A stretch of DNA of 29,793 nucleotides, from contig CALMSE010000310.1 in assembly GCA_937872275.1 (NCBI GenBank), forward strand, positions 1 through 29,793. The letters are read 5' to 3'. The first letter of the stretch is position 1. The number at the start of each line of letters is the position of its first letter. Both the position numbers and the translations under genes were made by a program. The notes under the pieces were generated by a model, which was not told the DNA's origin, did no database searches, and was given only the letters and a program-made list of their open reading frames with translations. This document shows positions 7,364 to 22,931 of the stretch, in pieces. Source of the DNA: an uncultured Leucobacter sp. GTDB lineage: Bacteria > Actinomycetota > Actinomycetes > Actinomycetales > Microbacteriaceae.

Positions 7364-8407
7364 TCAGGAGGCCGCGGATACCGCGGCGGGCCCCCTGCTG
7401 CGCCGTCTCTCCGTCATCGACCGTCTGATCATCGGCACGATCTCGCGGATCAGCACGACCAGCATCAGCACGACCGCCTGCGCGATGAGCTGCCAGGCGT
7501 CCGACCAGCCGACCGCGCGGAAGAGCTGCCCGAGCTGGGTCAGGAACAGCGCGGCCACGCCCGAGGCGACGATGCTCGCGAGGCCGCCGGTGAGCGCCGT
7601 GCCGCCGAGCACCACCGCCGCGACCGTGGGCAGCAGATAGGAGTCGCCGAGGAACAGCGGCGGCGTCTTCGTGTAGGAGGCGAGCAGGATGCCGGCGGCC
7701 GCGTAGAACGCCCCCGCGACGCCGTACGCGAGCACCTGGTAGCTGACGACCGGGGTGCCGATGGCGCGCGCGGCCGGCTCGCTCACGCCCACCTCGGTGA
7801 GGCGGCGGCCGATCACCGTGCGGCTCGCGACGAAGCCGGCGATGATGATCACGACGATCGCGATGAGCAGGGTGTTCGGTATGCCGAAGGTGCGGTCGAG
7901 CGTGAACTGGTACAGCTGCGTCGGCGCGCTCGACGGGGTGCCGCCGGAGATCATGAACACGACGCCCAGCAGCACGCTGTTCATGCCGAGGGTCACGACG
8001 AGCGGCATCACCTTGAACACGACGACGATGACGCCGTTGAGGAGGCCGAACAGCAGCGGCACCGCGACGCCGACGATCACCGCCGGCACCACGTCCCAGC
8101 CGTAGGACTGCGGGAGCTTGGTGACGAGCACCGCGCCGAGGGCGAGCATGCCCGGCACCGACAGGTCGAGGCCCCGCTGCTGCACCACGAGCGTCTGCCC
8201 GACCGAGGCGATCGCGAGCACCGCCGCGAACGGCAGCATGCTCAGCAGGGGCGCCGAGCCGAGGCTGCCGGGGGCGATGAGCGGACTGATCGCGAACAAC
8301 GCGATCGTCGCGATCCAGATGGCGGTGTAGCGGCCCGACAGCAGGCGCGTCCAGATCTGACCGACCGCCTGGGAGCCCCTGGGGTCCGGGGAGGTGCGAT
8401 TGTCCAT
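7364..8407 (-). CDS. ABC transporter permease, ribose/simple-sugar (RbsC) type
   Basis: Integral membrane permease of 347 aa with about 8-10 hydrophobic segments. The family loop VVQQRGLDLSVPGM (the GGxDLSVG motif of RbsC-like proteins), VFKVMPLVVTLGM and the C-terminal VVLGGTALTGGLASI are all present. It is the second membrane subunit; the first is fused to the ATPase encoded just upstream. The ATG lies 2 nt past the stop of the fusion gene and uses AAGGAG embedded in the end of that gene, so the two are translationally coupled. A longer open frame reaching 9343 is a shadow of the fusion gene. CUT2-type importers carry pentoses, polyols, autoinducer-2 and similar small hydroxylated molecules; the substrate here is not evident. 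Confidence 0.92.
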   Translation of the reverse strand: MDNRTSPDPRGSQAVGQIWTRLLSGRYTAIWIATIALFAISPLIAPGSLGSAPLLSMLPFAAVLAIASVGQTLVVQQRGLDLSVPGMLALGAVLVTKLPQSYGWDVVPAVIVGVAVPLLFGLLNGVIVVVFKVMPLVVTLGMNSVLLGVVFMISGGTPSSAPTQLYQFTLDRTFGIPNTLLIAIVVIIIAGFVASRTVIGRRLTEVGVSEPAARAIGTPVVSYQVLAYGVAGAFYAAAGILLASYTKTPPLFLGDSYLLPTVAAVVLGGTALTGGLASIVASGVAALFLTQLGQLFRAVGWSDAWQLIAQAVVLMLVVLIREIVPMIRRSMTERRRSRGPAAVSAAS

Positions 8408-8409
8408 GA

Positions 8410-10956
8410 TTAGCTCCTTGCCCGACGCAGCTGCGCGTAGAAGATGGCGGCGCCGACGGTGATGACGCCCGGAAGCAGGTACGACCACTCCTGGGTGAGC
8501 CCGAAGAAGGGCATCGCGTTGATGACCTGCTGCACGAGCACGGCGGCGACGATGATCACCGCGAAGGAGCCGCGGCCGCCGAAGATGCTCGCGCCGGCCA
8601 GCACGAGCACGGTCACCGAGGCGAGGGTGTAGGCGAGGCTCGGGCGCCCGTCGCCGATGCCGACCTGGGCCATCATGATGAGCGCGGCGGGGAACACGAG
8701 CAGCGAGGCGAGCACGTACGACATGAGCTGCACCCGGCGGACCGGGATGCCGAGGCGCTCCGCCGCAGCGGCGTCGGAGCCGTATCCGCGCAGCTTCAGA
8801 CCCCAGCGCGTGCGCCGCAGGCACCACTCGAGCACGAGGGCGACCACGACCGCGACGATGAAGGCCACCGGGACCATGCCGATCTTGAAGGTCACGATGC
8901 TCGTGAGCGACGAGGAGATCAGACCGCCGGGCGTGGGGCGGAGCGCCAGGAAGGCGCCCTGCAGGGCCATGTAGGTGGCGAGGGTCACGACGACGGGGCT
9001 GATTCCGAAGCGCGACGACAGGAAGCCGTTCACGAAGCCGACGAGCAGGGCGCCGACCAGCACCAGCCCGAGCCCGAACCAGAGGTTGCCGCCGTCGATG
9101 ATCCAGAACGAGCCCAGTACGACGAGGAAGCCCATCAGCGGGCCGACCGAGAGGTCGAAGCCCGCGCCGAGCACCACGACGAGCTGGGCCGAGCCGACCA
9201 GGATCAGCGGCGCCACCAGGAACAGCAGGTTGCCGATGTTGAAGGCCGAGAAGTACGAGGCGTTCGTCGCGCCCACGGCGATCGCGAGCGCGACGACGAT
9301 GAGGCCGAGCACCGCGGCCGGCGACTGGTCCCCCCGGAGCCACTTGCGGAAGCGCGACGACCGGCCCTCCTTGCCGACGACCTCGATGCGGGAGGTCGTC
9401 GAGGTGAGCGCGGCGTGCGCGATGCCCTCCTCCGTCACCTCCTCGCCGACGAGCTCCTTCACGACCTGGCCGCGCGACATGATCAGCACGCGGTCGCAGA
9501 GGCCCTCGAGCTCCACGCCGTCGGAGGAGAGGATCACCACCGCGGCGCCCTGATCCGCCGCATCTCGGAGGATCTGGTAGATCTCGACGCGCGCGCCGGC
9601 GTCGACGCCCTGCGTGGGCTCCTCCGCGAGGATGACCTTCGGGTGCGCGAGCAGCGTGCGGGCGAGCACGACCTTCTGCTGGTTGCCGCCGGAGAGCGAC
9701 TGGATCGGCGTTCGGCTCGACGGCGTCTTGATGCCGAGCTTCTCGATCTGCTCCCTCGCGGCCCTCGCGATCCGGGATTCGCCCACGACGCCCCCCGGCG
9801 AGAACCGGCGCAGCGTATGGGCGACGATGTTCGAGCCGACGGACAGCGGGAGGAAGACCCCCTCGCCGTGGCGATCGGCCGGAACGAAGACCATGCCCGA
9901 CTTCGCCGCGTGCACGTTGCTGCCGCGACGCACCGCCGCGCCCTCGACGGCCACCTCGCCGCTGGAGCCCGAGAGCCCCGCCAGCGCCCGCATGAGCTCG
10001 CTCTGGCCGTTGCCCTGCACGCCCGCGATGCCGACGATCTCCCCGGCTTTGACGTTCATCGACACGTTGTGGAAGCCCGCGGAGCTGAGCTTCGTCACGG
10101 TCAGCTGATCGGCCGTGCCGACCGTGCCTGCGACGCTGCCCTTCACCGGGAACACCGCCTCGAGCGCGCGCCCGATCACGAGCTCGACGATCTGGTCCTC
10201 GCTCACCGCGTCGGCCTCGAAGGTGCCGCGGATCGCGCCGTCGCGGAGCACCGTCAGGCGGTCGGAGATCCGCTTCACCTCGGGGATGCGGTGCGAGATG
10301 TAGACCACGGCGCTGCCCGAGGCCACGACCTCGCGCACCCGCTCGAACAGCCGCTCGACGAGCGACGCGTTCAGGTGCTCGGTCGGCTCGTCGAGGATCA
10401 GCACCTTGGGCTCGAGCGCGAGCGCCTTCGCGATCTCCACGATGAAGCGCTGCTCCACGGGGATGTCCGAGACGCGGGCGGTCGGATCGATGTCCATGCC
10501 CCAGGAGTCGAGCTGCTCCCGCGCCCAGGCCGGTGCGCGCCCGATCCCGCCGACCCGCTCGTAGCCGACGCCGATCGCCATGTTCTCGGCGACGGTGAGG
10601 TCGGGTAGCAGCGCGGGGTGCTGGCGCACGATGCCGAGGCCGAGGCTTCGCGCCTCGTCGGGCGAGGCGCTCTCGAGCTGCACCCCGCCGATGTGCACCG
10701 TGCCCTCGTTGGGCGCCAGCGCCCCCGAGGCCACGGCCATCAGCGTCGACTTGCCCGCGCCGTTCTCGCCGACGAGCGCGTGGACCTCGCCGGCGCGCAC
10801 GGTGAGGTTCACGTTCTTGAGGGCGTGCACGCCGGGGAATCGCCGTTCGATCCCGCGGAGATCGAGCAGGATGTCGGTCCCCGCGGTCCCCGCGGTCCCG
10901 GCGGCCTGCGCGCCCTCGGCGCCGGAGACGAGCTGCGCGCTGGGGGTTTCGGTCAT
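8410..10956 (-). CDS. Fused CUT2 ABC importer subunit: double ATPase (RbsA-like) joined to permease (RbsC-like)
   Basis: 848 aa, equal to an RbsA-type tandem ATPase (about 28-520) plus a full RbsC-type permease (about 545-848). ATPase 1 has Walker A GENGAGKS (63-70), Q-loop at VRQH, Walker B VLILDEPTEHL (around 186-194) and SHR (221-223), but its signature reads VSDIPVEQR instead of LSxGQ. ATPase 2 has the degenerate P-loop GVQGNGQSE usual in RbsA, an intact LSGGNQQK signature (421-428), and a Walker B of VILAEEPTQG in which the Asp is replaced by Ala. The permease half carries LGAGFDLSVGPLMG and, near its end, LAGASIFGGRG. The join is a charged linker (KEGRSSRFRKWLRGDQ). There is no stop or frameshift at the junction, and RBS AGGAG precedes the ATG, so the fusion is genuine. 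It should form the importer core with the next permease. Confidence 0.93.
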   Translation of the reverse strand: MTETPSAQLVSGAEGAQAAGTAGTAGTDILLDLRGIERRFPGVHALKNVNLTVRAGEVHALVGENGAGKSTLMAVASGALAPNEGTVHIGGVQLESASPDEARSLGLGIVRQHPALLPDLTVAENMAIGVGYERVGGIGRAPAWAREQLDSWGMDIDPTARVSDIPVEQRFIVEIAKALALEPKVLILDEPTEHLNASLVERLFERVREVVASGSAVVYISHRIPEVKRISDRLTVLRDGAIRGTFEADAVSEDQIVELVIGRALEAVFPVKGSVAGTVGTADQLTVTKLSSAGFHNVSMNVKAGEIVGIAGVQGNGQSELMRALAGLSGSSGEVAVEGAAVRRGSNVHAAKSGMVFVPADRHGEGVFLPLSVGSNIVAHTLRRFSPGGVVGESRIARAAREQIEKLGIKTPSSRTPIQSLSGGNQQKVVLARTLLAHPKVILAEEPTQGVDAGARVEIYQILRDAADQGAAVVILSSDGVELEGLCDRVLIMSRGQVVKELVGEEVTEEGIAHAALTSTTSRIEVVGKEGRSSRFRKWLRGDQSPAAVLGLIVVALAIAVGATNASYFSAFNIGNLLFLVAPLILVGSAQLVVVLGAGFDLSVGPLMGFLVVLGSFWIIDGGNLWFGLGLVLVGALLVGFVNGFLSSRFGISPVVVTLATYMALQGAFLALRPTPGGLISSSLTSIVTFKIGMVPVAFIVAVVVALVLEWCLRRTRWGLKLRGYGSDAAAAERLGIPVRRVQLMSYVLASLLVFPAALIMMAQVGIGDGRPSLAYTLASVTVLVLAGASIFGGRGSFAVIIVAAVLVQQVINAMPFFGLTQEWSYLLPGVITVGAAIFYAQLRRARS

Positions 10957-11005: not shown

Positions 11006-11728
11006 CTACTGCGCGAGATAGCCGCCGTCGATGACGAGCTCGGCGCCGGTCATGAAGCTGGACTCGTCGCTCGCCAGGAACAGCGCGCCGTTCGCGATCT
11101 CCTCCGGGTTCCCCGCGCGGCCCATGGGCGTCTGCCCCACGACGTACTCGTTCACCTCCGGCGCCTGGTTCTCGGTGAGGGGGGTCCAGATGAAGCCGGG
11201 GTGCAGCGAGTTCACGCGGATCCCCGTGGTCGCGTAGGTGATCGCGGCGTTCTTCGACATGTTGCGCACGGCGCCCTTGGTCGCGTGATAGGCGTGCGCG
11301 CCGCCGACGGCGGCGTTGCCCCAGATCGAGGAGACGTTGATGATCGAGCCCGCGCCCTGCGTGATCATGTGCGGGATCACCTCCCGCATGCCGAGGAAGA
11401 CGCCGGTCTGGTTCACGGCGACGACGCGGTTCCAGGCCTCGAGGGAGAGCGCGTCGACGGGGTCGTACTCGATGATGCCGGCGTTGTTGACGAGCACGTC
11501 GATGCGGCCGTGCCGCTCGAGCACCTCGGCGACGAGCTCGTGCCAGCCCGCCTCGTCGCCGGCGTCGTGCGAACGGTACTCGATGCCCTCGGCGTCGTAC
11601 TCCTCGTGAGCGGATCGCGCCGTCGCGTACACGACCGCGCCCTCTCGGGCGAACAGCTCCGCGGTGGAGCGGCCGATGCCCCTGCCGGCCCCGGTGACGA
11701 TGGCGATCTTGCCGTCGAGTCGCTTCAT
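11006..11728 (-). CDS. Short-chain dehydrogenase/reductase inserted between binding protein and ATPase genes
   Basis: Classical SDR, 240 aa from the chosen start. TGAGRGIG (12-19), NNAG (81-84), catalytic Ser134, Tyr147 and Lys151 (YHATKG) and the C-terminal GxxLxxDGGY motif are present, the last typical of tetrameric FabG-like oxidoreductases. A GTG at 11752 would add eight residues, but the ATG at 11728 has AGGAG at a suitable distance and family similarity begins immediately after it. The gene sits inside the importer operon, after the binding-protein gene and a strong hairpin, and 49 nt before the ATPase-permease fusion. This placement suggests that it acts on the imported compound, oxidising an alcohol or reducing a ketone with NAD(P). 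Confidence 0.9.
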
Positions 11729-11765
11729 GGTTGGATTCTCCTGACTACTCACGTCGTTGTGATGA

Positions 11766-11839: not shown

Positions 11840-13000
11840 CTAGCTGAAGAGCTCCTTCAGGCGCTCGACGCTCAGGCCCGACGAGAGGATCGCGTCGGCC
11901 GGCAGGCTCGCCTCGCACTGGGGCATCAGATCCGGATCGGTCGAATCCTCGATGATCTCCAGCTTGAAGATCGAGGGATCCGTGCTGATGATGCCGTTGT
12001 GCGCCGCGAGTGCCTTGTTCAGCGCGGCCTGGACGACCCAGTTGCGCGATGACATGGTCGCGATCTGGTACTTGGAGTCCTCGGAGCCGTGCTCGTACCA
12101 CAGGCAGGCGAACTCGTTCGAGTCGTTCGCCGTCCACACCGGCAGCTCCTTGCCCGCGGCCTGGAAGGCGCGGATGCCGCCGACGGAGCCTCCGCCGTAG
12201 TCGGAGACGATGCCGTCGATGTCGCCGTAGGAGGTGATGAGGCCCGCGACCACCTGCTGGGTCTTGCCGGGCTCCCAGTCGGTCGAGACGGGGCCGTCCT
12301 CGTTCAGCAGCGTGATGTTCGGGTAGTCGTCGAGCGCGCGCACGACGCCGTCGTACACGCCCTGCGAGTACGAGTTGCCGGCGATGCCGCCGAGCATGAC
12401 GAGGTTGCCCTCGCCGCCCATCTGCTCCATCGTCCAGCGGGCGAGGCCCTCGCCGTAGGTCTCGATGTCCTCGGCCACGAAGTCGACGTAGTCGACGCCC
12501 GGCTCTCCGCCCGGCGAGCCGACGAACGGCACGAAGCTCACGCCCTGCTCGGTCGCCTGACGGATCGTCGGCAGCAGCGCCTCGCCCCCGTCGACGAAGC
12601 TCACGATCACGTCGACGCCCTGCGCCACGAGCGAGTTGATGTCGGAGATCGCCTTCTGCGTGTCGCCCTGAGCATCCGTGTAGATGATGTCGGTGATGTT
12701 GTCGCACTTGGCGGCCCAGTCCTCGAAGATCGCGCGAGTGATCTTGCGCCAGGAGTTGCCGCCGAAGCCGTCGGCGAGCGCGACCTTGATGGGCTCGTCG
12801 CCGCAGTACTCGGTGATGTCGACGATCTCCGACTGGAGGCCGGCCCTGCCGAGCTCCTGGCCCTCCGGCACGACGGAGCCCGCGCCGGCGCCGCCGCCGT
12901 CGCCCGAGCCGCCGTCGGATCCGCCCGAGGCGCAGCCGGTGAGCGCGAGGCCGGCCACTGCGAGAAGCGCGGCGCCCCGGATTACCTTTCTCCGAATCAT
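11840..13000 (-). CDS. Substrate-binding lipoprotein of the ribose-type ABC importer
   Basis: Extracytoplasmic binding protein, 386 aa. The signal peptide MIRRKVIRGAALLAVAGLAL ends in lipobox LTGC (Cys23 is the lipidated residue), followed by a Gly/Ser-rich tether (about 25-42). The mature part is a periplasmic-binding-protein-1 fold of the sugar class: IKVALADGFGGNSWRK, GDTQKAISDINSLVAQGVDVIVSFVDG, and IDGIVSDYGGGSVGGIRAFQAAGKELPVWT. It captures the substrate at the membrane surface for the permeases encoded downstream. The ATG at 13000 is favoured over upstream in-frame starts because the signal peptide begins there; AGAAGG lies about 12 nt upstream, slightly far. It is the first gene of the operon and is divergent from the esterase-BVMO operon across 386 bp. 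The sequence does not tell which small molecule is bound. Confidence 0.93.
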   Translation of the reverse strand: MIRRKVIRGAALLAVAGLALTGCASGGSDGGSGDGGGAGAGSVVPEGQELGRAGLQSEIVDITEYCGDEPIKVALADGFGGNSWRKITRAIFEDWAAKCDNITDIIYTDAQGDTQKAISDINSLVAQGVDVIVSFVDGGEALLPTIRQATEQGVSFVPFVGSPGGEPGVDYVDFVAEDIETYGEGLARWTMEQMGGEGNLVMLGGIAGNSYSQGVYDGVVRALDDYPNITLLNEDGPVSTDWEPGKTQQVVAGLITSYGDIDGIVSDYGGGSVGGIRAFQAAGKELPVWTANDSNEFACLWYEHGSEDSKYQIATMSSRNWVVQAALNKALAAHNGIISTDPSIFKLEIIEDSTDPDLMPQCEASLPADAILSSGLSVERLKELFS

Positions 13001-13386
13001 GTCTGTATTCACCCTTCTGGTCTGGAGTGTTGCGCGATTCCGCCGTACGTCCGCTCGTCGGCGAGCGGATCCCGAACGCACGGCCGCGCTGAGGTTTCGA
13101 ATTCTCCTCCGCACCCTCCGAGCGGGGACTGCGGAAACAAGGGGTCCGGAGGCAATTCGTGATCAGACTATGCACGTCCGGTCGCCATCATCTCAGGCTG
13201 CATCATCGTGAGACGGCGGAGTCTCATTTTGAGACTCCGCCCGGTCCGCGGCGAGCGTCGCAGGCGAAGCTAGAGCCATCGCAACGGCCGCTCCGGCCGC
13301 GCGAGCGCCGGGCGGCGAACCCGGCCGGGGCGATCCGCCCCCGCTCGAGACTACCCGCACACCCCTGTTCGAAGGAGAGCATCAGC
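13001..13386. promoter_or_regulatory. Divergent control region of the importer and BVMO operons
   Basis: This 386-bp region has no convincing gene. It holds the operator-like palindrome described separately (13209-13241). On the minus strand a possible promoter reads CTGAGA, then an 18-bp spacer, then CATAGT (13167-13172) just downstream of that palindrome, serving the binding-protein gene with a long leader. A hairpin CCGCTCG/CGAGCGG (13051-13068) with a TCGG tetraloop would lie in that leader. On the plus strand AAGGAG (13374-13379) is the ribosome site of the esterase gene; its promoter is not clear by eye. Confidence 0.5.
13209..13241. promoter_or_regulatory. Operator-like nested palindrome, putative GntR site 1
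   Basis: TGAGAC occurs at 13209 and 13230 with the inverse GTCTCA at 13221, giving two overlapping inverted repeats. The stronger one is a perfect 12-bp arm pair (GGCGGAGTCTCA at 13215-13226 and its complement at 13230-13241) around TTT. Its core GTCTCATTTTGAGAC matches a second site near 22914 at 12 of 15 positions. Location between divergent operons and symmetry fit a dimeric repressor, most likely the GntR protein encoded at 18138-18860. Confidence 0.6.
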
Positions 13387-14292
13387 ATGACCGCACCTCG
13401 CCCCACCGACCGTCTCGGAGAGGTCTACGCCGAGTGGGCCGTCGAGATGGGCCGCTACCCCGACATGTCCATCGAACTGCTGCGGATCATCTTCGACGAC
13501 TGGCAGCGCGTGACCGGCGAGCCCGAGGGCGTCACCTATGCCGACACCGAGATCGGCGGCGTGCCCGGCATCCTCGTCACTCCGCTGGGCGCCGACCCGC
13601 AGCAGGTGCTCGTGCTGCTGCACGGCGGCGGCTTCGCCCTCGGCTCGTCGCGCAGCCACCGCAAGCTCGCGGGGCACCTCGCCAAGGCGGCCGGCACCAC
13701 GGCCTTCGTCGTCGACTTCCGCCTCGCGCCCGAGCACAAGTTCCCGGCCGCCATCGAGGACGGCGTGGCCGTGATCCGAGCGCTGCGCGAGGCCGGGCAC
13801 CGCGTCGAGGACGTCAACCTGGTCGGCGACAGCGCGGGCGGCAATCTGGCGATCGCCACGGTGCTGAAGCTGCGCGAGCTCGGCGAGCCGCTGCCGGCCC
13901 AGGTGCTGACCATGTCGCCCTGGCTCGACATGGAGAACAGCGGCTCCACCATCGAGACCAACGACGCGACCGACTTCCTGATCGCGCGCGAGGGCCTGCA
14001 GGCGAACATCGACCGCTACATCGAGGGCGTCGTCTCGCCCACCGACCCGCTCGCGAACCCGCTCTACGCCGACCTCACGGGCTTCCCCCGCCTCTACATC
14101 ACCGCCGCCGACACCGAGTCGCTGTTCGACGACAGCGTGCGGCTGCACGACCGCGCGAAGGCCGCGGGCGTCGACGTCGCCTTCTCGATCGGCGAGGGCA
14201 TGCAGCACGTGTTCCCGTTCCTCGCGGGCAGGCACCCGCGCGCCGACGAGGAGATCGCGCGCATGGCCGAGTGGTACCGCGCCGGCCGCTGA
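13387..14292 (+). CDS. Alpha/beta hydrolase, HSL (GDSAGG) family: probable lactone hydrolase or esterase
   Basis: Cytoplasmic hydrolase of 301 aa with no signal peptide. Oxyanion-hole motif HGGGF (79-83), nucleophile motif GDSAGG (147-152, Ser149), an acid in ADTESLFDD (about 242-248) and catalytic His274 in GMQHVF are all present, so it should be active. The hormone-sensitive-lipase family includes monoterpene epsilon-lactone hydrolase and caprolactone hydrolases of cyclic-ketone pathways. Because the next gene encodes a Baeyer-Villiger monooxygenase, I infer that it opens the lactone or cleaves the ester made by that enzyme. The ATG is preceded by AAGGAG. It is first of the plus-strand operon, directly downstream of the putative GntR operator. 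Confidence 0.9.
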   Translation: MTAPRPTDRLGEVYAEWAVEMGRYPDMSIELLRIIFDDWQRVTGEPEGVTYADTEIGGVPGILVTPLGADPQQVLVLLHGGGFALGSSRSHRKLAGHLAKAAGTTAFVVDFRLAPEHKFPAAIEDGVAVIRALREAGHRVEDVNLVGDSAGGNLAIATVLKLRELGEPLPAQVLTMSPWLDMENSGSTIETNDATDFLIAREGLQANIDRYIEGVVSPTDPLANPLYADLTGFPRLYITAADTESLFDDSVRLHDRAKAAGVDVAFSIGEGMQHVFPFLAGRHPRADEEIARMAEWYRAGR

Positions 14293-14346
14293 CACGACGA
14301 CACCTCACCCGAGAACCCCAGAACCCGAGAAAGAGACTCAACGACC

Positions 14347-15984
14347 ATGACTGACACCATCACGAAGCCCGACTACGACGCCCTGGTGATCGGCGCCGGC
14401 TTCTCCGGCCTGGCCATGCTGCACCACCTCCGCGAGGCGGGGTTCAACACCCACGTCGTCGACGGCTCCGACGGCATCGGCGGCACCTGGTGGATCAACC
14501 GGTACCCCGGCGTCCGCACCGACAGCGAGTACAGCTACTACTCCTTCTCCTTCTCGAAGGAGGTGCGCGAGGAGTGGGTCTGGAAGCAGCGCTACCCCGC
14601 CGGCGACGAGGTGCTGGCCTATCTCGAGTTCGTGGCGGACCGCCTCGACCTCCGCCGCGACATCGAGCTGAACACCTTCGTGGAGCGTGCCGTCTACGAC
14701 GAGGACGCCAACCTCTGGAGGGTCACCTACCGCGACGGGCGCACGGTCACGACGCGCTACCTCGTCAGCGGCATGGGCGTGCTGTCGCAGCCGGTGTTCC
14801 CGGCGATCCCCGGCATCGAGACCTTCAGGGGAGAGAAGTACCACGCCGCCCGCTGGCCGCGCGAGGGCGTGAGCTTCGAGGGCAAGCGCGTGGGCATCAT
14901 CGGCCTCGGCGCCTCGGGCATCCAGATCGTGCCCGTCGTGGGCCCCCAGGCGAAGGAGTTCTTCGTCTTCCAGCGCACGCCGAACTACATCGTCGAGACG
15001 ACCAACGAGGGCGTCACCGACGAGCAGATGCAGCACCTCCGCGAGAACTACGACGCGATCTTCGAGAAGGCCGCCCGCCACCCCTTCGGCGTGGCGATGG
15101 AGCCCGCCGAGCACAGCGCGCTCGAAGTCTCGCCCGAGGAGCGGGAGCGCATCTTCACCGCCAAGTGGAACGAGGGCGGCTTCCACTTCGCCAACGAGTG
15201 CTTCAACGATCTGGCGACGAACCCGGAGGCGAGCGAGCTCGCGGCCGAGTTCATCCGCAGCAAGATCCGCGAGACGGTGAAGGACCCGGCGACCGCCGAG
15301 CTGCTGTCGCCGCGCAGCTACACCTTCAACGGCAAGCGCGTGCCCACCGGCCACAACTACTATGCGACGTTCAACCTCGACACGGTGCACCTCATCGACA
15401 CCAAGTCGACGCCGATCACCCGCATCAGTGAGAAGGGCGTCGTCGTCGGCGACACCGAGTACGAGCTCGACATGATCATCTTCGCGACCGGCTTCGACGC
15501 GATGACGGGCACCCTGACCGCGATCGACATCGTCGGGCGCGACGGGCGCACCCTGGAGCAGAAGTGGGGCGAGGAGGGGCTGAAGACCAACCTCGGCATC
15601 GGGGTGCACGGCTACCCGAACTTCTTCGTCTCGCTCGGCCCGCAGACCCCCTACGCCAACCTCGTCGTGCCGATCCAGATGGGCGCCCAGTGGCTGCAGC
15701 AGCTGCTGGTGTGGGCGCGCGACCACGGCGTCGAGCGCATCGAGGCCACCCCGGAGTCGGAGGAGGCCTGGGCCGAGGAGACCGTGCGCGCCGCGAAGGC
15801 CACCGTCATGTACGAGGAGGGGAAGAAGGCCGGCGCCTGGTTCATGGGCGACAACATCCCGGGCAAGCGCGAAGAGGTGAACGTCTACATGGGCGGGCAC
15901 GGCACCTACCAGGACTTCTGCAAGGCCGAGGCCGAGGCCGGCTATCCGACCTTCCGCTACGGCGCCGAGACCGTCGGCGCCTGA
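14347..15984 (+). CDS. Type I Baeyer-Villiger monooxygenase (FAD/NADPH)
   Basis: 545 aa, the usual length for cyclohexanone-monooxygenase-like enzymes. FAD Rossmann motif GAGFSG is at 16-21, the NADPH Rossmann motif GLGASG at 186-191, and the diagnostic BVMO fingerprint FxGxxxHxxxWP is intact between them (FRGEKYHAARWP, 160-171). GGTWWINRYPGVRTDSE (45-61) replaces the more common GGTWYWNRYPGARCD form, which places it in a distinct BVMO subgroup. IIFATGFD and the C-terminal WFMGDNIPGK are also typical. It inserts oxygen next to a ketone to form a lactone or ester at the expense of NADPH and O2. It lies 54 nt after the hydrolase gene and 23 nt before an SDR, so ketone formation, oxidation and hydrolysis are encoded together. 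Cyclic, terpenoid and short linear ketones all remain possible. Confidence 0.94.
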   Translation: MTDTITKPDYDALVIGAGFSGLAMLHHLREAGFNTHVVDGSDGIGGTWWINRYPGVRTDSEYSYYSFSFSKEVREEWVWKQRYPAGDEVLAYLEFVADRLDLRRDIELNTFVERAVYDEDANLWRVTYRDGRTVTTRYLVSGMGVLSQPVFPAIPGIETFRGEKYHAARWPREGVSFEGKRVGIIGLGASGIQIVPVVGPQAKEFFVFQRTPNYIVETTNEGVTDEQMQHLRENYDAIFEKAARHPFGVAMEPAEHSALEVSPEERERIFTAKWNEGGFHFANECFNDLATNPEASELAAEFIRSKIRETVKDPATAELLSPRSYTFNGKRVPTGHNYYATFNLDTVHLIDTKSTPITRISEKGVVVGDTEYELDMIIFATGFDAMTGTLTAIDIVGRDGRTLEQKWGEEGLKTNLGIGVHGYPNFFVSLGPQTPYANLVVPIQMGAQWLQQLLVWARDHGVERIEATPESEEAWAEETVRAAKATVMYEEGKKAGAWFMGDNIPGKREEVNVYMGGHGTYQDFCKAEAEAGYPTFRYGAETVGA

Positions 15985-16007
15985 CGCCGGCAGAGCAGGA
16001 GGAGAAC

Positions 16008-16778
16008 ATGGCGAGGTTGCAGGGCAAGGTCGCGTTCATCACGGGAGCGGCCATGGGCATGGGGCGGGCGACCGCCGAGCTCTTCGCCGCGGAGGGCGCC
16101 CGGGTGGCGGTCACCGACTTCAACGAGGAGGCGGGGCGGGCGACCGCCGAGGCGATCGCGGCGCAGGGCGGCGACGCCGTCTTCCACCCGCTCGACGTCT
16201 CGGACGAGCGGCAGGTGGCCGACGCCGTCGCCCGGGTCGTCGAGCGCTGGGGAACCATCGACGTGCTGGTGAACTGCGCCGGGGTGATCGGCCCCGACAA
16301 GCAGACCCACGAGGTCACCGAGGAGGAGTGGGATGCGCTCTTCGCGGTCGACGTCAAGGGCGTGTTCTTCGCCACGAAGCACGCGGTGCCGCACATGATC
16401 GCCCAGCGCAGCGGGAGCATCGTGAACTTCTCGTCGATCTACGGGCTCATCGGCAACGACGAGTTCTCGCCCTATCACGTGGCGAAGGGCGCCGTGACGA
16501 TGCTCACGAAGCAGGATGCCGCGAGCTACGGCCAGTACAACGTGCGGGTCAACTCCGTGCACCCGAGCACCGTGCTGACCCCGCTGGTCGAGGGCATCGC
16601 CAACGCGTTCGAGGGCGGGCTGCCCGCCTACGAGCGGCACATGACCTCGAACCAGTCGATCCGACGCCTCGGCACGCCGCTCGACGTCGCCTACGCGGTG
16701 CTCTTCCTCGCCTCCGACGAGTCGAGCTGGGTCACCGGGGTGAACCTGCCCGTCGACGGCGGCTACACGGCCCGATAG
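16008..16778 (+). CDS. Short-chain alcohol dehydrogenase (SDR), partner of the BVMO
   Basis: Classical SDR, 256 aa, preceded by a strong AGGAGG ribosome site. TGAAMGMG (12-19), Asp37 after the second strand (predicts NAD rather than NADP), VNCAG, Ser143, Tyr156 and Lys160 (YHVAK) and the C-terminal PVDGGYTAR are present. The sequence style (AAMGMGRATAELFAAEGARV) resembles the group containing carveol and related cyclic-alcohol dehydrogenases, although this cannot be settled by eye. In context it probably oxidises a secondary alcohol to the ketone used by the BVMO. A hairpin follows 6 nt after its stop and separates it from the Old Yellow Enzyme gene. Confidence 0.92.
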   Translation: MARLQGKVAFITGAAMGMGRATAELFAAEGARVAVTDFNEEAGRATAEAIAAQGGDAVFHPLDVSDERQVADAVARVVERWGTIDVLVNCAGVIGPDKQTHEVTEEEWDALFAVDVKGVFFATKHAVPHMIAQRSGSIVNFSSIYGLIGNDEFSPYHVAKGAVTMLTKQDAASYGQYNVRVNSVHPSTVLTPLVEGIANAFEGGLPAYERHMTSNQSIRRLGTPLDVAYAVLFLASDESSWVTGVNLPVDGGYTAR

Positions 16779-16784
16779 CGCGCA

Positions 16785-16815
16785 GCGGGCCGGTCCGCGC
16801 GTCGGACCGGCCCGC
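16785..16815 (+). terminator. Hairpin downstream of the SDR gene
   Basis: A perfect 13-bp stem (GCGGGCCGGTCCG at 16785-16797, complement at 16803-16815) with a 5-nt CGCGT loop. It begins 7 nt past the stop codon. No U-run follows. It could be a partial terminator that lowers expression of the downstream OYE and GntR genes or a message-stabilising element. Confidence 0.65.
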
Positions 16816-16919
16816 GGATCGAGCCCGACGCGCCCGGCGTCCTCGCGGCCCGGCAGCCCCGCGGCCCGGCATCCTCATCGCGCCGCGGTCCCGCGGCCCC
16901 GACGAACATGGAGACACGA

Positions 16920-18017
16920 ATGCCAGCGCACCTCTTCGACCCGCTCACCATCCGCGGCGCGACCTTCCGCAACCGGATCTGGGTGTCTCCCATGTGCCAG
17001 TACGCCTGCCTGGGCTTCGACGGCGTTCCGAACGACTGGCACTTCGTGAACGCGGGAGGCTACGCCTCGGGCGGTGTCGGCCTGGTGATGGTCGAGGCCA
17101 CCGGGGTGAGCCCCGAGGCTCGGATCACGTCCGAGTGCGCCGGCATCTGGAACGAGGAGCAGCAGGAGCAGTGGGCCCGCATCGTCGGCTTCGTGCATTC
17201 GCAGGGGGCGCTCGCCGGCATGCAGCTCGCGCACTCCGGCCGGAAGGGCTCCGACTACCGGGGCTTCACCGATGAGGCCGGGAGGACCAAGCCGGTCGCC
17301 GAGGGCGGCTGGGAGACGGTCGCCCCCTCGGCGATCGCCGCTCCCGGCTTCGACGTGCCGCTCGAGCTCGACGAGGCCGGCATCCGGAAGATCGTCGACG
17401 ACTTCGGCGACGGGGCCCGGCGGGCGGTGCGGGCCGGGTTCGACGTCGTCGAGATCCACGCGGCCCACGGCTACCTGCTGCACACCTTCCTCTCCCCCCT
17501 CAGCAACCACCGCACCGACGAGTACGGCGGCTCGCTCGAGAACCGGGCCCGGCTGCTGCTCGCCGTGGTCGAGCGGATCCGCAGCGTCATCCCCGACTCC
17601 ATGCCGCTCTTCATCCGCTTCTCGGGAACCGACTGGGTCGCGGACGGCTGGACCCCGGAGGAGACCGCCCGGGTGGCGGGGTGGGCCGCCGAGCTCGGCG
17701 CCGACTTCTTCGACATCTCCAGCGGAGGCCTGCTCAGGGACATCTTCATCTCGGTGTCACCCGGCTACCAGGTGCCCCTCGCGGAGACGGTGCGCGAGCT
17801 GGGCGGGGTTCGGGCGGCCGCGGTCGGCAAGATCACGACACCCGCGCAGGCGGAGGCCGTTCTCGCCGAGGACCGCGCCGACGCGGTGTTCATGGCGCGC
17901 GAGCTGATCCGCGATCCGCACTTCGTCTTCCGGGCGGCCGCCGAGCTCGGGGTCGACATCGACTACGTCCCGCTCTCCTTCCGCGGCGCGAACTGGAGGA
18001 GCACGGAGAGCGCCTGA
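16920..18017 (+). CDS. Old Yellow Enzyme family ene-reductase (YqjM class)
   Basis: FMN-dependent NADH:flavin oxidoreductase of 365 aa. It has the thermophilic-like/YqjM hallmark SPMCQYA with Cys26 and Tyr28 at the same residue numbers as in YqjM, the substrate-binding pair His180/His183 in EIHAAHGYLLHTFLSPLSN, and the HSGRKGS loop (105-111). Such enzymes reduce the C=C bond of alpha,beta-unsaturated ketones and aldehydes. An upstream in-frame ATG at 16908 has no ribosome site; GGAG sits 6 nt before the ATG at 16920, which is chosen. Beside a BVMO and an SDR this suggests that an enone is saturated before ring oxidation, as in carvone or cyclohexenone breakdown. A 141-bp gap with a hairpin separates it from the SDR. 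Confidence 0.93.
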   Translation: MPAHLFDPLTIRGATFRNRIWVSPMCQYACLGFDGVPNDWHFVNAGGYASGGVGLVMVEATGVSPEARITSECAGIWNEEQQEQWARIVGFVHSQGALAGMQLAHSGRKGSDYRGFTDEAGRTKPVAEGGWETVAPSAIAAPGFDVPLELDEAGIRKIVDDFGDGARRAVRAGFDVVEIHAAHGYLLHTFLSPLSNHRTDEYGGSLENRARLLLAVVERIRSVIPDSMPLFIRFSGTDWVADGWTPEETARVAGWAAELGADFFDISSGGLLRDIFISVSPGYQVPLAETVRELGGVRAAAVGKITTPAQAEAVLAEDRADAVFMARELIRDPHFVFRAAAELGVDIDYVPLSFRGANWRSTESA

Positions 18018-18094
18018 CGCCCGCCACGGTCCCGGCCGTCGACCCCGGCGGAGCACCGGCGGTCCGCCCGGGCGCCCCCGCCGCGATCTGCATC

Positions 18095-18137
18095 TAGAAT
18101 TGAGTGGTGCGCGAGCAAGCGCGCGGAGAGTTGAGAC
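18095..18137 (+). promoter_or_regulatory. Probable -10 element and leader of the GntR gene
   Basis: TAGAAT at 18095-18100 differs from TATAAT at one position. A start of transcription about 7 nt later would leave a leader of some 30 nt containing GGAG (18125-18128), 9 nt before the ATG. No clear -35 box is seen. ATTGAG and GTTGAGAC nearby resemble half-sites of the putative GntR operator, which would allow autoregulation. Confidence 0.5.
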
Positions 18138-18860
18138 ATGTCGGCCACAACGGTGATGCGGCAAGCAGCCCCGGTTCGGGAGCAGGTGGCCGCCGCGATG
18201 CGCGCCGAGATCGTCGGCGGCGCCCTCGTGCCGGGAGGACGCCTCTACGAGAAGACCCTCTGCGAGCGCTACGGCGTCTCCCGCACCGTGATCCGAGAGG
18301 TGCTGCGACAGCTGGAGTCGGAGAGCCTCGTCACCGTGCGGCCGGGGCACGGGCCGATGGTGACCGTGCTGACCCCCGCCGACATCGAGGCGCTCTACGA
18401 GGTGCGGCAGGAGCTCGAGGGGCTCGCCGCCGAGCTCTTCGCCCGCCGCGCCACCGACGAGCAGGCCCTGGGCATGCTCGAACTGGTGCGGGGCATGGAG
18501 CAGAGCTATCTGCACGGCACCCTCGAATCCCGGGGGGAGAGCAAGGACGAGTTCTACCGCCGCCTCCTCGAAGGCGCGGGGAACCCGGTGCTGAGCTCGA
18601 CGCTGGAGGGCATTCATGCCCGAATCGGCATATTCCGCTACTTCGCCTTCACCGACCCCGAGCGGGTCAGGATCTCCTACACCGAGATCCTCGCCATCGT
18701 CGAGGCCGCCGCGCGCGACCGCGATCCGAAGACCGCGCGCCTGAACTCAGAGCACCACGTCTCGCTCGCAGGCAAGCTCGCCATTCTCGAGTACCGGCGC
18801 AGGCGCTCCGACGACGGCCTCCTCACCGAACCGGAGCACCCGCTCACGCCCATCGGCTAG
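18138..18860 (+). CDS. GntR-family regulator with FCD (FadR C-terminal-like) domain
   Basis: 240 aa. An N-terminal winged helix (about 13-76; YEKTLCERYGVSRTVIREVLRQLE is split by the turn at GVSRT) is followed by an all-helical ligand-binding FCD domain (about 83-215). FCD domains normally hold a metal with Asp and three His; here the FH position is Phe139-Tyr140, the second His position reads YTE, and only the last (SEHH, 205-207) remains, so metal binding is doubtful. Members repress catabolic operons and release on binding a carboxylic acid or related metabolite. The gene follows the OYE gene by 120 nt with its own likely promoter, and ends 3 nt before the convergent hyuB stop. It is the best candidate to bind the shared palindromes at 13221 and 22914. 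Confidence 0.93.
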   Translation: MSATTVMRQAAPVREQVAAAMRAEIVGGALVPGGRLYEKTLCERYGVSRTVIREVLRQLESESLVTVRPGHGPMVTVLTPADIEALYEVRQELEGLAAELFARRATDEQALGMLELVRGMEQSYLHGTLESRGESKDEFYRRLLEGAGNPVLSSTLEGIHARIGIFRYFAFTDPERVRISYTEILAIVEAAARDRDPKTARLNSEHHVSLAGKLAILEYRRRRSDDGLLTEPEHPLTPIG

Positions 18861-18863
18861 GCC

Positions 18864-20648
18864 TCAGCCAGCCGCCGCGGCGCGCAGCTCGGCCGTGGCC
18901 GCCTCGTCCACCCGCAGCGCCTCGGAGAACACGTCCTCGACGAAGACCACGCCGTAGTCGTCACGGGCCGACGCGAACGAGACGAAGCCCGCGAGCACGT
19001 CCTCGCGCACCTGCTCGGCCGGGCGCAGTCGCGGATCGCCGTAGCCTCCCCCGCCGCTCAGCCGGTGGCCGAGGAACTCCCCGGGCTCGAGGCCGATGCT
19101 GCCGATCAGGGGCGCCGTGGCCAGGTCGCCCTCGGGGGTCAGCACATAGGGCTCGGAGGGGGCGGCCGAACCGCCGCCGACCGCGCCGCGGGGCGGATTC
19201 ACGTTGCCGTCGGTGACATAGTAAGCGGTCATGGTCGCGTGCGACGGGCCGTACTCGAGGACGGTGCCGGGCGCACCGCGCCACCGGCCGGCGCCGCCCG
19301 AGTCGGGGCGGATCCGCAGTTGCCGCACGTGCAGCGGGTACTTCTGCTCGTCGACCTCGACGCTGTCGCGCAGCATCAGGCCGTTGGTCACCGAGTTGCC
19401 GTAGGTGAGCCAGCCGTCGTAGCCGGGGCTCGCGGGTCCCCCCTGGCTGCCCAGGAAGAGCTGGTTGATGTAGGCGGCCGGCGCGTTGCCCCGGTAGTCC
19501 TTGCCCGACACCACGGCGAAGCCCGCCCCGAGGCCGCTCGAGCCCTCGGCTTGCCCCTCGCCGGGCCAGCGCTCGGCGATGATGCGCTGCGTGGTCATGA
19601 CCAGGCGCTCGCCGACGTTCGTCGTCGCGACCGAGGTCGAGTGCGGGAACGACGGGCGACCGACGATGCAGTTGTCGCGCAGCAGCACCTCGATGCAGCG
19701 GAAGCTGCCGGCGTTGCGCGGCACGTTCGGGTCGAGGCAGTTGAGCACTCCGGTCATGGAGTTGTTGACCGCGCAGGTCTCGGACTCGTTGATGCCGCCG
19801 TCGACGCAGTCCATGTTGTCGCGCAGGTCGACGACCACGCGGCCCTCCTCGGGCAGGATCTCGACCCTCACGTTCACGGGAACGCCGTCGGGCACGAGGT
19901 CGCCCACGGGGTCGTGCATGCCGGTCCCCTCGGCGACCCCGGCCGGCATCTTCGCGATGGTGTCGCGCATCATCCGCTCCGAGTAGTCGAACCAGTCGTC
20001 GATGAAGTCGCGGATCCGCTCGGCGCCGTACTTGCGCGTGAGCTCCTGCAGACCGCGCTCGCCGATGCGGGCGGCGCCCACCATCGCCAGGTAGTCGCCG
20101 TACCACTGGTCCGGCACCCGGATGCGGTTGCGGCACATCGTGATGATGTCGTCGATGTCGTCGAAGTCGCGCTGCACCTGCGTCGCGCGGAAGATCAGCG
20201 CGCCCTCCTCGTACACGTCGCGCGCGAAGGGCATGTAGGTGCTCGGCACCGAGTTGCCGATGTCGGCCTGGTGCGCCTTCGCGAGGGTCGTGAACATGTG
20301 CACGCCGTCGACGAACACCGGCACCATGAGGGTGTGGTCGGCCGCGTGGGTGTTGCCCGCGTAGGGGTCGTTGTGCAGGAAGGCGTCGCCCTCGCGCAGA
20401 TCCGGGTGGATCGTGGTCATCGCCACGCCGAGCCGGTCGCTGCCGATCACGTGCACCGGCAGGCCCTCGGCCGTGGCGAGCAGGCGGTTGTCGCCGGTGA
20501 TGATGCTGCACGAGAAGTCGCGCGCCATGTTCAGGACGGCGGATCGGCCCGCGCGCAGCAGGGTGTTCTCCATCTCGCGCACGATGCCGTCGAGGCGGTT
20601 CGCGATGACCGACATGTCGATGATGCTGGTCGAGTAGGCGGTGCTCAT
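18864..20648 (-). CDS. Hydantoinase B / oxoprolinase family subunit
   Basis: 594 aa, matching the length of HyuB-type subunits (about 590) and clearly shorter than acetone carboxylase alpha (about 770). MARDFSCSIIT near the N-terminus, HNDPYAGNTHAADHT and the C-terminal glycine-rich SGGGGYGDP are family signatures. It partners with HyuA to form an ATP-dependent enzyme. Hydantoin, N-methylhydantoin, 5-oxoproline and caprolactam are hydrolysed by relatives, and ketones are carboxylated by others. No small gamma subunit, which ketone carboxylases need, is found nearby, so amide-ring hydrolysis is favoured. The ATG has GGAG 7 nt upstream and lies 24 nt behind hyuA. It converges on the GntR gene with only 3 nt between stops. 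Confidence 0.92.
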   Translation of the reverse strand: MSTAYSTSIIDMSVIANRLDGIVREMENTLLRAGRSAVLNMARDFSCSIITGDNRLLATAEGLPVHVIGSDRLGVAMTTIHPDLREGDAFLHNDPYAGNTHAADHTLMVPVFVDGVHMFTTLAKAHQADIGNSVPSTYMPFARDVYEEGALIFRATQVQRDFDDIDDIITMCRNRIRVPDQWYGDYLAMVGAARIGERGLQELTRKYGAERIRDFIDDWFDYSERMMRDTIAKMPAGVAEGTGMHDPVGDLVPDGVPVNVRVEILPEEGRVVVDLRDNMDCVDGGINESETCAVNNSMTGVLNCLDPNVPRNAGSFRCIEVLLRDNCIVGRPSFPHSTSVATTNVGERLVMTTQRIIAERWPGEGQAEGSSGLGAGFAVVSGKDYRGNAPAAYINQLFLGSQGGPASPGYDGWLTYGNSVTNGLMLRDSVEVDEQKYPLHVRQLRIRPDSGGAGRWRGAPGTVLEYGPSHATMTAYYVTDGNVNPPRGAVGGGSAAPSEPYVLTPEGDLATAPLIGSIGLEPGEFLGHRLSGGGGYGDPRLRPAEQVREDVLAGFVSFASARDDYGVVFVEDVFSEALRVDEAATAELRAAAAG

Positions 20649-20672
20649 GATTCTCTCCCTCTGCTCGCCGCT

Positions 20673-22757
20673 TCAGACGGCCCGGTTGCTCAGGCGGTAG
20701 TCGCCGGAAGGAAGCACCTCGAGCAGTTGCCCGGGGTGGATGACGATGGTCGTGATGTCTTCGCGGATGATCGCGGGGCCGTCGAGGCTGCCGCGGCGGA
20801 CCACCTCGAGGGCGTCGAGCACGGGGGTCTCCTGCCACCCGGTCTCGCCGAAGTAGCCCGGGCGCGACGCGACCCCGCCCTCGGTGCCCGAGGAGACGAA
20901 GCTCCCCTTCTCCTCGCTCGCGACGAGCTGCGCCCGGGCGCGCGCGCCCCAGGCGACGATCTCGATGTGCTTGCCGACCTCGCGCACGCCGAACACGCGC
21001 TCGTGCTCGAGGTGAAAGCACTCCTCCACGTCGCGGGCCGAGAGGCCGTCGAGGGCCTGCCGGTCGCCGAGCGGGATCGTGAGCTCCCAGGCCTGCATCG
21101 GATAGCGGGCCTGCATGTAGAAGTCGGTCGAGGTGCCGGCGATCGTGGCGTGGTCGAGCGTGCCGAAGAACTCCTCCGCCGCCGCGCTCACCCGGCGGAT
21201 CCCCTCGTTCTCGACCGAGAAGCCCTCGCTGTCGGTCGTCATGAAGGTGACCGCGTCGAACTCGCTCACGATGTCGGAGTAGAGCGCCCCGTACGCGCTC
21301 ATCGCGCCGGCCGCCTTCGGCAGGATCACCGAGCCCGCGCCGAGCTCGCGGGCGATGAGGCCGATCGTCAGGCCCGACGCGCCGCCGCCGGCGACGACCG
21401 CGAGCTCGCGGGCGTCGATGCCCTTCGCCACGGTCTTCTCGCGGATCGCGGTGACGATGTTGTCGACCGAGATGTGCAGGGCCGCGCTCGCGGCCTCCTC
21501 GATCGTCATGCCGAGGCGCTCGGCGACGCCCTCGATCGAGCGGCGGGCGCCCGCGAGGTCGAGTCCGAGCCGGCCGCCGAGGAAGTTGGAGGAGTCGAGG
21601 TAGCCGAGCACCAGCGCCGCGTCGGTGATGGTGGGCTCGGTGCCGCCGCGACCGTAGCAGACGGGGCCGGGCTCGGAGCCCGCGCTCTGCGGGCCGACCC
21701 GCATCAGGCCGCCGCCGTCGACCCAGATGATCGAGCCGCCGCCGGCGCCGATGCTCTCGATGTCGACCGAGCGGGCGCCCGTGATGTCGCCGATCCACTT
21801 GCCGCCGAGCCAGGTGTCGGTCGTGCGGGCGACCTCGCCGCGCACGACGACGGCCAGGTCGAAGGTCGTGCCGCCCATGTCGGTGACGAGCAGGATGTTC
21901 TCCGCGGCTCCGCCCGGGAGGTTGTGATCCGCGACCTCGATCGCCGCGAGAGGCGCCATCGAGGGACCCGAGCCGATCGAGTACACCGGCTGCTCGGCGA
22001 TGCGGTCGGCGTGCCAGCCGCCGCCGTAGGAGGTCGAGATCAGCAGGGTGCCGGTGAAGCCGGCCTCGGCGAGATCGCTCTCGAGGTCGCCGAAGAACTT
22101 CTGCATCGAGGGCTTGAGCGAGGCGTCGATCGCGGTCGCCGACGCCCGCCGGTACTCGCGGATGCTGGGGTTCACCTGGTGCGACAGGGTGTAGGGGATG
22201 CCCGGCAGGTGCTCTTCGATGAGCTCGCCGACGCGCAGCTCGTGCGCGGGGTTGCCGATCGACCAGATCAGGCTGACCGCGATCGCCTCGACCTCGGACT
22301 CCCGGCAGCGCCGCAGGGCCTCGACGACGGTCCGCTCGTCGAGCGGGGTGTACACGGAGCCGTCGCTCGCGATGCGCTCGCCGATCTCGAAGGTCAGGTA
22401 GCGCGGAACGTAGGGGCCGCGGTAGTGCAGGCGGCGGAACGGATCGGGCTTGCCGCCCTCGCGCAGCAGCAGCACGTCGGGGAAGCCCTCGGTGGTCAGC
22501 AGCGCCGTCTTCGCCGTCTGCGCGGTCACGACGAGGTTCGTCGAGCGGGTCGTGCCGTAGTTGATCTGGCTCGACCGGCGCACGAGCTCGTCGACGGAGA
22601 TGCCGATGGTCTGCGCGATGTCCTCGAGGCCCTGCTCGATCGCGAGGTAGGCGCGCTCGCGCGTGGTGAGCGCCTTCGACATGTAGACGTTGTTGCGGTC
22701 GTCGCGGACCACCAGGTCGGTGAAGGTGCCGCCGGTGTCCACAGATACTCGATACAC
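20673..22757 (-). CDS. Hydantoinase A / oxoprolinase family subunit (ATP-binding)
   Basis: 694 aa, GTG start preceded by GAGGAG at about 7 nt. The ASKHA-type nucleotide-binding motifs are clear: DTGGTFTD (7-14), DMGGTTFD (293-300) and ESIGAGGGSI (334-343), followed by VGPQSAGSEPGPVCYG. The subunit is expected to phosphorylate the substrate carbonyl (lactam/imide oxygen, or ketone enolate in carboxylase relatives) so that the HyuB subunit can complete the reaction. Size of both subunits fits N-methylhydantoinase/caprolactamase-like enzymes rather than acetone carboxylase. The gene leads a two-gene operon whose promoter region carries the putative GntR palindrome (22911-22931). The substrate is unknown; a lactam or cyclic imide related to the BVMO substrate would make sense but is inference. 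Confidence 0.93.
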   Translation of the reverse strand: MYRVSVDTGGTFTDLVVRDDRNNVYMSKALTTRERAYLAIEQGLEDIAQTIGISVDELVRRSSQINYGTTRSTNLVVTAQTAKTALLTTEGFPDVLLLREGGKPDPFRRLHYRGPYVPRYLTFEIGERIASDGSVYTPLDERTVVEALRRCRESEVEAIAVSLIWSIGNPAHELRVGELIEEHLPGIPYTLSHQVNPSIREYRRASATAIDASLKPSMQKFFGDLESDLAEAGFTGTLLISTSYGGGWHADRIAEQPVYSIGSGPSMAPLAAIEVADHNLPGGAAENILLVTDMGGTTFDLAVVVRGEVARTTDTWLGGKWIGDITGARSVDIESIGAGGGSIIWVDGGGLMRVGPQSAGSEPGPVCYGRGGTEPTITDAALVLGYLDSSNFLGGRLGLDLAGARRSIEGVAERLGMTIEEAASAALHISVDNIVTAIREKTVAKGIDARELAVVAGGGASGLTIGLIARELGAGSVILPKAAGAMSAYGALYSDIVSEFDAVTFMTTDSEGFSVENEGIRRVSAAAEEFFGTLDHATIAGTSTDFYMQARYPMQAWELTIPLGDRQALDGLSARDVEECFHLEHERVFGVREVGKHIEIVAWGARARAQLVASEEKGSFVSSGTEGGVASRPGYFGETGWQETPVLDALEVVRRGSLDGPAIIREDITTIVIHPGQLLEVLPSGDYRLSNRAV

Positions 22758-22910
22758 GTTGATCTCCTCGAATCGTCCGGCTCGGCTCCGACCGCCCGGC
22801 TCGCTGCGCGGGGACGTCGGGGAGCAGAGCCGTCGGGCTCCGCCGCCGCTTCCGACGAGGCCCCGCCCCGTGAATCCTCATGCTAGGCGCGCCGGAGCGG
22901 GCTCGGGCGG

Positions 22911-22931
22911 GTTGTCTCATATTGAATCAAC
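22911..22931. promoter_or_regulatory. Operator-like palindrome, putative GntR site 2
   Basis: The 21-bp element GTTG-nn-TCA-tat-TGA-nn-CAAC is an inverted repeat with two mismatched pairs per arm. Its core GTCTCATATTGAATC (22914-22928) equals the site at 13221-13235 at 12 of 15 positions, including an 11-of-12 match over GTCTCATnTTGA. It lies 154 bp upstream of hyuA and immediately upstream of the dcd -10 box, in a locally AT-rich patch of an otherwise GC-rich gap. Confidence 0.6.

Follow-up and report, generated by a model that had tools for sequence, protein, structure and literature searches.

The question raised by this locus is which regulator acts on a palindrome found in two divergent promoter regions 9.7 kb apart in a stretch of 29,793 nucleotides (hereafter the window) from an uncultured Leucobacter sp. 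(contig CALMSE010000310.1). One of these regions separates a sugar-type ABC importer operon from an operon for an esterase and a Baeyer-Villiger monooxygenase (BVMO), and the other separates hyuA from dcd. The first-pass annotation had assigned the palindrome (motif 1; consensus GTCNCAnnnTGNGAC) to the GntR-family regulator with an FCD domain, whose gene (18138-18860, + strand) does lie between the two sites. Comparison of related genomes indicated that the palindrome is genuine, conserved and operator-like, and that it probably ties the importer, the BVMO pathway and HyuAB together. However, we consider it likely that motif 1 is the operator of an activator of the AcoR/DhaR type, whose gene is part of this cluster (4825-6573, + strand) and which would drive all three operons, and that the GntR protein acts through a different element (motif 2) on the aldehyde dehydrogenase (ALDH) side. 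The activator gene had not been mentioned in the first-pass annotation.

Both sites were confirmed by direct count, with 12 of 15 bases in common: site 1 (GTCTCATTTTGAGAC, 13221-13235) is the esterase-proximal one, and site 2 (GTCTCATATTGAATC, 22914-22928) is located upstream of hyuA. Both had been described as parts of inverted repeats, which is fully true of site 1, a perfect repeat with 12-bp arms (GGCGGAGTCTCA-TTT-TGAGACTCCGCC), and true in a weaker form of site 2, an imperfect repeat with pairing at 7 of 9 arm bases (GTTGTCTCA-TAT-TGAATCAAC). A third copy, overlooked earlier (GCATCATCGTGAGAC, 13200-13214), stands on the importer-proximal side exactly 21 bp ahead of site 1, and the two form a tandem pair. 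As for the earlier argument that the match is unlikely by chance, the window alone gave four matches with ≤3 mismatches (site 1 contributing one per strand) against a shuffle mean of 1.25; 5 of 100 shuffles did as well, so that the window-only match is suggestive at most. In the organism's own genome (2.57 Mb searched, 77% complete), the sole places matched with ≤2 mismatches were site 2 and, on both strands, site 1. Allowing 3 mismatches gave 19 rows there, of which 16 (the third copy among them) had the full 3 mismatches, and the backwards control gave 11. Across 54 Leucobacter genomes (172 Mb), the 15-mer with ≤2 mismatches was scarcely enriched (252 matches versus 219 for the backwards control). 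Isolated matches elsewhere therefore carry little weight, and the case depends on position and conservation. From the 54-genome control rate, the chance of a match with ≤2 mismatches in the 203-bp hyuA-dcd gap was estimated to be ~3e-4.

The decisive support for motif 1 in these sequences is conservation, not match counts. A GntR ortholog at 70-87% identity was found in 4 of the 54 Leucobacter genomes besides the window (next-best matches, ≤46%), and three of these four relatives have a BVMO ortholog at 83-85%. The tandem pair with its 21-bp spacing was present in the esterase-importer gap of all four BVMO-bearing Leucobacter genomes, window included, and its site identity (mean ungapped pairwise) was 0.79 for 13200-13214 and 0.97 for 13221-13235, compared with 0.41 and 0.38 for the flanks. 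The single hyuA site was likewise kept in all four HyuA upstream regions seen among the five loci examined, with 13-15 of 15 bases identical for each genome pair and flanks at 0.27-0.35, except for the promoter side of the pair formed by the window and genome G047 (0.92). The genome search and ortholog comparison proposed by the first-pass annotation thus found both sites kept beside orthologous genes in Leucobacter relatives. Its suggestion of one regulator for the importer, BVMO and HyuAB gained support from both kinds of site, as well as from recurrence of the pair in other actinobacterial genera. The perfect 12-bp arms of site 1 in the window would also suit an RNA hairpin, that is, a terminator or attenuator in place of an operator. 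However, the long arms are not conserved, relatives retaining the 15-bp core, no T-run follows site 1, the site lies upstream of both divergent operons, and the tandem spacing is conserved across genera. We find an RNA hairpin barely credible, and the terminator was rejected on account of the arms and the missing T-run.

When 84,980 species were scanned with nothing but the tandem pattern, 43 stretches were recovered, and 29 of these, from 28 genomes, fall at the esterase-BVMO cluster. These genomes include Leucobacter, Herbiconiux, Microbacterium, Agromyces, Lacisediminihabitans and another Microbacteriaceae metagenome-assembled genome, together with Arthrobacter, Nakamurella, Streptomyces, mycobacteria and a Corynebacterium-like strain; the 21-bp spacing is seen in other genera of the family set too, e.g., at loci L115, L117 and L118. 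The 14 non-cluster stretches were treated, as far as checked, as unrelated or chance. Of six open reading frames (ORFs) near two of them, three had no family and the others were a recombinase, an HNH nuclease and a weak MarR match; one sigma-54 pattern searched near all 14 gave no match. Separately, arrays of a GTCTCA-N3-TGAGAC palindrome, 21 bp apart, were seen at L126, L128, L143 and L161, which are records from Nocardioides soli and from Ignavibacteria, Paludibacteraceae and Bacteroidales; a recombinase or HNH gene was near the two examined.

We compared these occurrences with the regulators encoded in the same genomes. The AcoR-type regulator was found in all 28 motif-bearing cluster genomes (40-62% identity, E ≤ 1.3e-119). 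A GntR ortholog (52-74%) was found in 21 of the 28, and some GntR-family match in all of them; the ortholog was missing in six mycobacteria and in Arthrobacter sp. B2a2-09, where the best matches were ≤43%. In a scan of 398 family genomes that were not selected by the motif, AcoR occurred in 14 and the pair (≤1 mismatch) in nine, all within those 14; the remaining five have the pair at 2 mismatches upstream of the esterase, giving 14 of 14, and the backwards control of the pair gave 0 in all 398 rows. GntR orthologs at 56-62% were present in 12 more of the 398 genomes, mostly with rearranged forms of the cluster. G082, a 99% complete genome in a single contig, combines the cluster and the pair with an AcoR gene, and it gave no GntR match at E ≤ 1e-50 among the best few candidates scored per genome and none within the cluster stretch. 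Altogether, the tandem pair is retained in eight genomes, from three lineages, that have no GntR ortholog; this contradicts the assignment of motif 1 to the GntR/FCD protein. A regulator encoded elsewhere in the genome might also bind motif 1, given that a regulator gene can be unlinked to its target sites and that we infer the binder from sequence. The presence of AcoR in every motif-bearing genome and in 14 of 14 in the family scan, however, makes such a regulator quite improbable. Consistently, 8 of 19 uncovered ORFs were scanned around the clusters of two GntR-less genomes, and just one further regulator turned up in each: in Arthrobacter G446 an ANTAR response regulator, and in mycobacterium G455 an RpiR-type gene. 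Neither was shared, and the 2 of 8 ORFs scanned beside the G082 cluster showed no regulator.

The GntR protein follows a second motif. Gaps upstream of the aldehyde dehydrogenase gene have GTAWTAC in common, mostly as CGTAWTACG, and the window's copy, motif 2 (CGTAATACG, 4726-4734), stands in the divergent gap between ALDH and AcoR as a FadR-type operator and likely GntR site. The operator consensus of the FadR subfamily is given as TNGTNNNACNA, with a GTNNNAC core, in the accessible part of PMC2230225. Motif 2 differs from it by 0-1 mismatches in most clusters (TCGTAATACGA in several, one mismatch in the window), whereas motif 1 lacks the GTNNNAC core and does not match TNGTNNNACNA. Exact motif 2 was present in the non-coding ALDH-AcoR DNA of 30 of 31 clusters with GntR and of none of the eight without it, while shuffles predict 0.75 and 0.14, respectively; in three of the 30 (G467, G442 and G451) it was found solely between GntR and AcoR. 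The GntR protein itself has a winged helix-turn-helix (HTH; PF00392) and an FCD domain (PF07729), both over cut-off, which is the domain content of the FadR subfamily, and none of the NCBIfam models listed matched it over cut-off. As judged from these sequences, the two motifs show a double dissociation, motif 1 being retained where GntR is missing and motif 2 not. In genus g13 (L116, L119 and L123), a longer palindrome, ATGACnGTATTACnGTCAT, surrounds motif 2 upstream of the ene reductase gene, and in all three loci a -10-like TAGGCT follows it, ahead of the ene reductase gene and gntR.

The domain structure of the AcoR-like protein was characterized with profile scans and alignments. Its C-terminal HTH is of the Fis type (PF02954 HTH_8, 43.1 bits versus a 22-bit cut-off). 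Its AAA+ region is diverged, with Walker A present and PF00158 at 18.1 bits, under the 20.2 cut-off. The GAFTGA loop, which belongs to the core of sigma-54 enhancer-binding proteins, was seen in none of the 33 aligned AcoR orthologs. The combination of a GAF sensor, a GAFTGA-less AAA+ region and HTH_8 is that of DhaR-like, sigma-70-dependent activators. Among five stretches compared across the 33 orthologs, conservation was highest in the recognition helix (0.91), followed by the HTH (0.86), GAF (0.75), AAA (0.61) and lid (0.58). Furthermore, sigma-54 itself (PF04552) was found over cut-off in 0 of 54 Leucobacter genomes, with one weak sub-cut-off match (G035), while the control of the same search gave matches in 4 of 14 genomes. 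The missing GAFTGA loop fits this lack of sigma-54. In the accessible part of PMC3162934, Actinobacteria are described as being without sigma-54, and the GAFTGA-less DhaR and TyrR as sigma-70 dependent. Note that a second, shorter AcoR-type paralog (~40-46% identity) is located beside the 3-hydroxyacyl-CoA dehydrogenase gene in two relatives (L098 and L099), and also on contig 21 of the organism's own genome (G000).

Promoter-like elements were found on both sides of the tandem pair in Leucobacter. On the importer side, a -10-like hexamer, TAGTCT (13165-13170, - strand), lies 29 nt from the pair as part of a putative importer promoter, and a TANNNT hexamer starts at this same distance in all four Leucobacter genomes. 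On the esterase side, a conserved GAAGCT (13266-13271, + strand), a candidate promoter element, lies 30 nt from the pair, its offsets in the four genomes being 30, 30, 30 and 29 nt. This layout would suit an activator of the sigma-70 type that binds close to the promoter.

Several observations weigh against the assignment of motif 1 to AcoR and of motif 2 to GntR. Co-occurrence alone cannot split AcoR from the other cluster genes because AcoR moves with the whole cluster, and the 28-genome set was selected by the motif. With all genera pooled, TANNNT at offset 29 was seen at 4 of 32 loci, just the four Leucobacter ones. The ALDH/AcoR gap of the window has no motif 1 (best, 7 of 12 arm bases, equaled by 88% of shuffles), and motif 1 did not exceed shuffles in the corresponding gaps of Arthrobacter G446 and G082 (95% and 99% equal, respectively). 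Those of the six GntR-less mycobacteria, which speak for AcoR instead, contain motif-1-like copies with 9-10 of 12 arm bases (0.7-12% of shuffles equal), though just two of the six exceed shuffles clearly; the ALDH/AcoR gap stretches compared were L205, L208, L212, L214, L220, L222, L226 and L252. As for motif 2, G448 has GntR and no exact copy, while the GntR-less G082 has one exact copy, inside importer ATPase coding DNA. The Fisher value for motif 2 versus GntR (1.5e-7) ignores relatedness and overstates independence, since the eight GntR-less clusters represent three lineages.

Other observations would favor the GntR/FCD protein as the factor that binds motif 1 and governs all three operons, beyond the position of gntR between the sites. 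In G047, the hyuA site is intact and persists together with a GntR ortholog (87%), and no AcoR match was found at E ≤ 1e-40. This genome (L048, L101 and L255) retains HyuAB, GntR and the ene reductase; no BVMO ortholog was found (40-41% paralogs only), nor, within the 47 kb examined, any ortholog of the importer or the esterase. Its hyuA homology changes reading frame, as would result from an assembly error or a frameshift. The promoter equals that of the window at 55 of 60 bases. Because of the frame switch and the missing BVMO ortholog, the hyuA site of G047 may be a leftover, and recent decay in this genome is plausible. In the relatives g12 and g76, copies of motif 1 stand directly 5' of gntR, where GntR autoregulation would fit too, and a motif-1 half-site, TTGAGAC (18131-18137), immediately precedes the gntR start codon in the window and in G047, not in G045 or G029. 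Both the copies and the half-site could reflect either regulator. On the other hand, the GntR ortholog is missing in seven of the 28 motif-bearing genomes and in the near-complete G082, and the protein follows GTAWTAC, whose GTNNNAC core motif 1 lacks. On balance, binding of motif 1 by GntR appears unlikely, and it was rejected as the best explanation because the pair persists without GntR and GntR goes with motif 2.

With the AcoR-type activator as the probable binder of motif 1, the parts can be arranged as follows. The activator may sense a pathway compound through its GAF domain and bind the tandem pair between the divergent operons, whose 21-bp spacing corresponds to two helical turns and whose copies each lie ~29-30 nt from a weak -10-like element. 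From there it would recruit sigma-70-type RNA polymerase to both the importer and the esterase-BVMO operons, and the single hyuA site would bring HyuAB under the same activator in Leucobacter. The GntR/FCD protein would be a second regulator, binding GTAWTAC in the ALDH/AcoR gap and controlling that side. A broader version, to which we give slightly less than even odds, is a two-way switch used across actinobacteria and independent of sigma-54, in which each palindrome fires one divergent sigma-70-type promoter from a fixed distance of ~29-30 nt, a FadR-type regulator gates the ALDH operon together with the activator, and Leucobacter has gained the hyuA site.

The gene order of the locus was established by Pfam scans. 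An NAD-kinase-like gene comes first, and the - strand then encodes a 3-hydroxyacyl-CoA-type dehydrogenase (HCDH), an iron alcohol dehydrogenase (FeADH) and the aldehyde dehydrogenase (3181-4689), which heads the ALDH-FeADH-HCDH operon and is divergent from the activator gene (+). A dehydrogenase gene follows, also on the - strand, and then, on the same strand, the importer operon with a permease (7364-8413), an ATPase fused to a permease domain (8410-10956), a short-chain dehydrogenase (11006-11752) and the substrate-binding protein (11840-13000), which is the first gene of that operon and whose start was placed by eye from a conserved ATG. The fused protein contains two ABC_tran stretches and a permease domain in a single chain of 848 aa, and its alignment is continuous in several relatives. 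On the + strand, profile scans identified a hormone-sensitive-lipase-type esterase (13387-14292), the BVMO (14347-15984), whose nearest solved relatives are steroid and phenylacetone monooxygenases, a short-chain dehydrogenase (16008-16778) and an old-yellow-enzyme-type ene reductase (16908-18017), followed by gntR. HyuB (18864-20648, -) and HyuA (20673-22757, -) precede dcd (+). HyuAB (18864-22757) is most like the caprolactamase CapAB (HyuA, 495 bits; HyuB, 262 bits), far under the 1000-bit cut-offs. The cluster enzymes may serve a terpene (carveol/carvone) pathway.

Each part of the system is of a known kind, and the pairing, the operator and the layout were not met in the literature searched; searches of open-licence papers turned up no description of this operator or regulator. 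The best NCBIfam relative of the AcoR-like protein is DhaR of Escherichia coli, an AcoR/NtrC-type protein (128 bits versus a 551-bit cut-off), which has the same GAF, degenerate AAA+ and Fis-type HTH arrangement without GAFTGA and is sigma-70 dependent (PMC3162934, accessible part). Unlike DhaR, the AcoR-like protein is encoded in an actinobacterial BVMO cluster, has a diverged AAA+ region, and has a proposed operator placed in tandem at two divergent promoters. The GntR protein shares its domains with the FadR-subfamily regulators GntR1 and GntR2 of Corynebacterium glutamicum, and motif 2 has the core of the subfamily operator consensus (PMC2230225, accessible part), whereas its proposed target is the aldehyde dehydrogenase side of a BVMO cluster. 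The acmAB ketone-oxidation operon of Gordonia sp. TY-5 also encodes a BVMO and an esterase, which convert a ketone to an ester that is then hydrolyzed (PMC6215540, accessible part). The likeness is at the level of gene pairing, and the window adds an importer, dehydrogenases, an ene reductase, HyuAB and two regulators. Regulation is not treated in the accessible text of that paper, in which the string 'regulat' has 0 occurrences.

These results correct a natural but probably wrong assignment of the palindrome to the nearest GntR gene, and they offer candidate inducible promoters for biocatalytically interesting BVMO clusters. Proteins of the NtrC/AcoR type have persisted in actinobacteria, which as a phylum are said to be without sigma-54 (PMC3162934, accessible part), and how they work there is therefore a good question. 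For one such activator, an operator can now be proposed exactly, along with a layout of its promoters and 28 genomes, so that the question would be directly testable.

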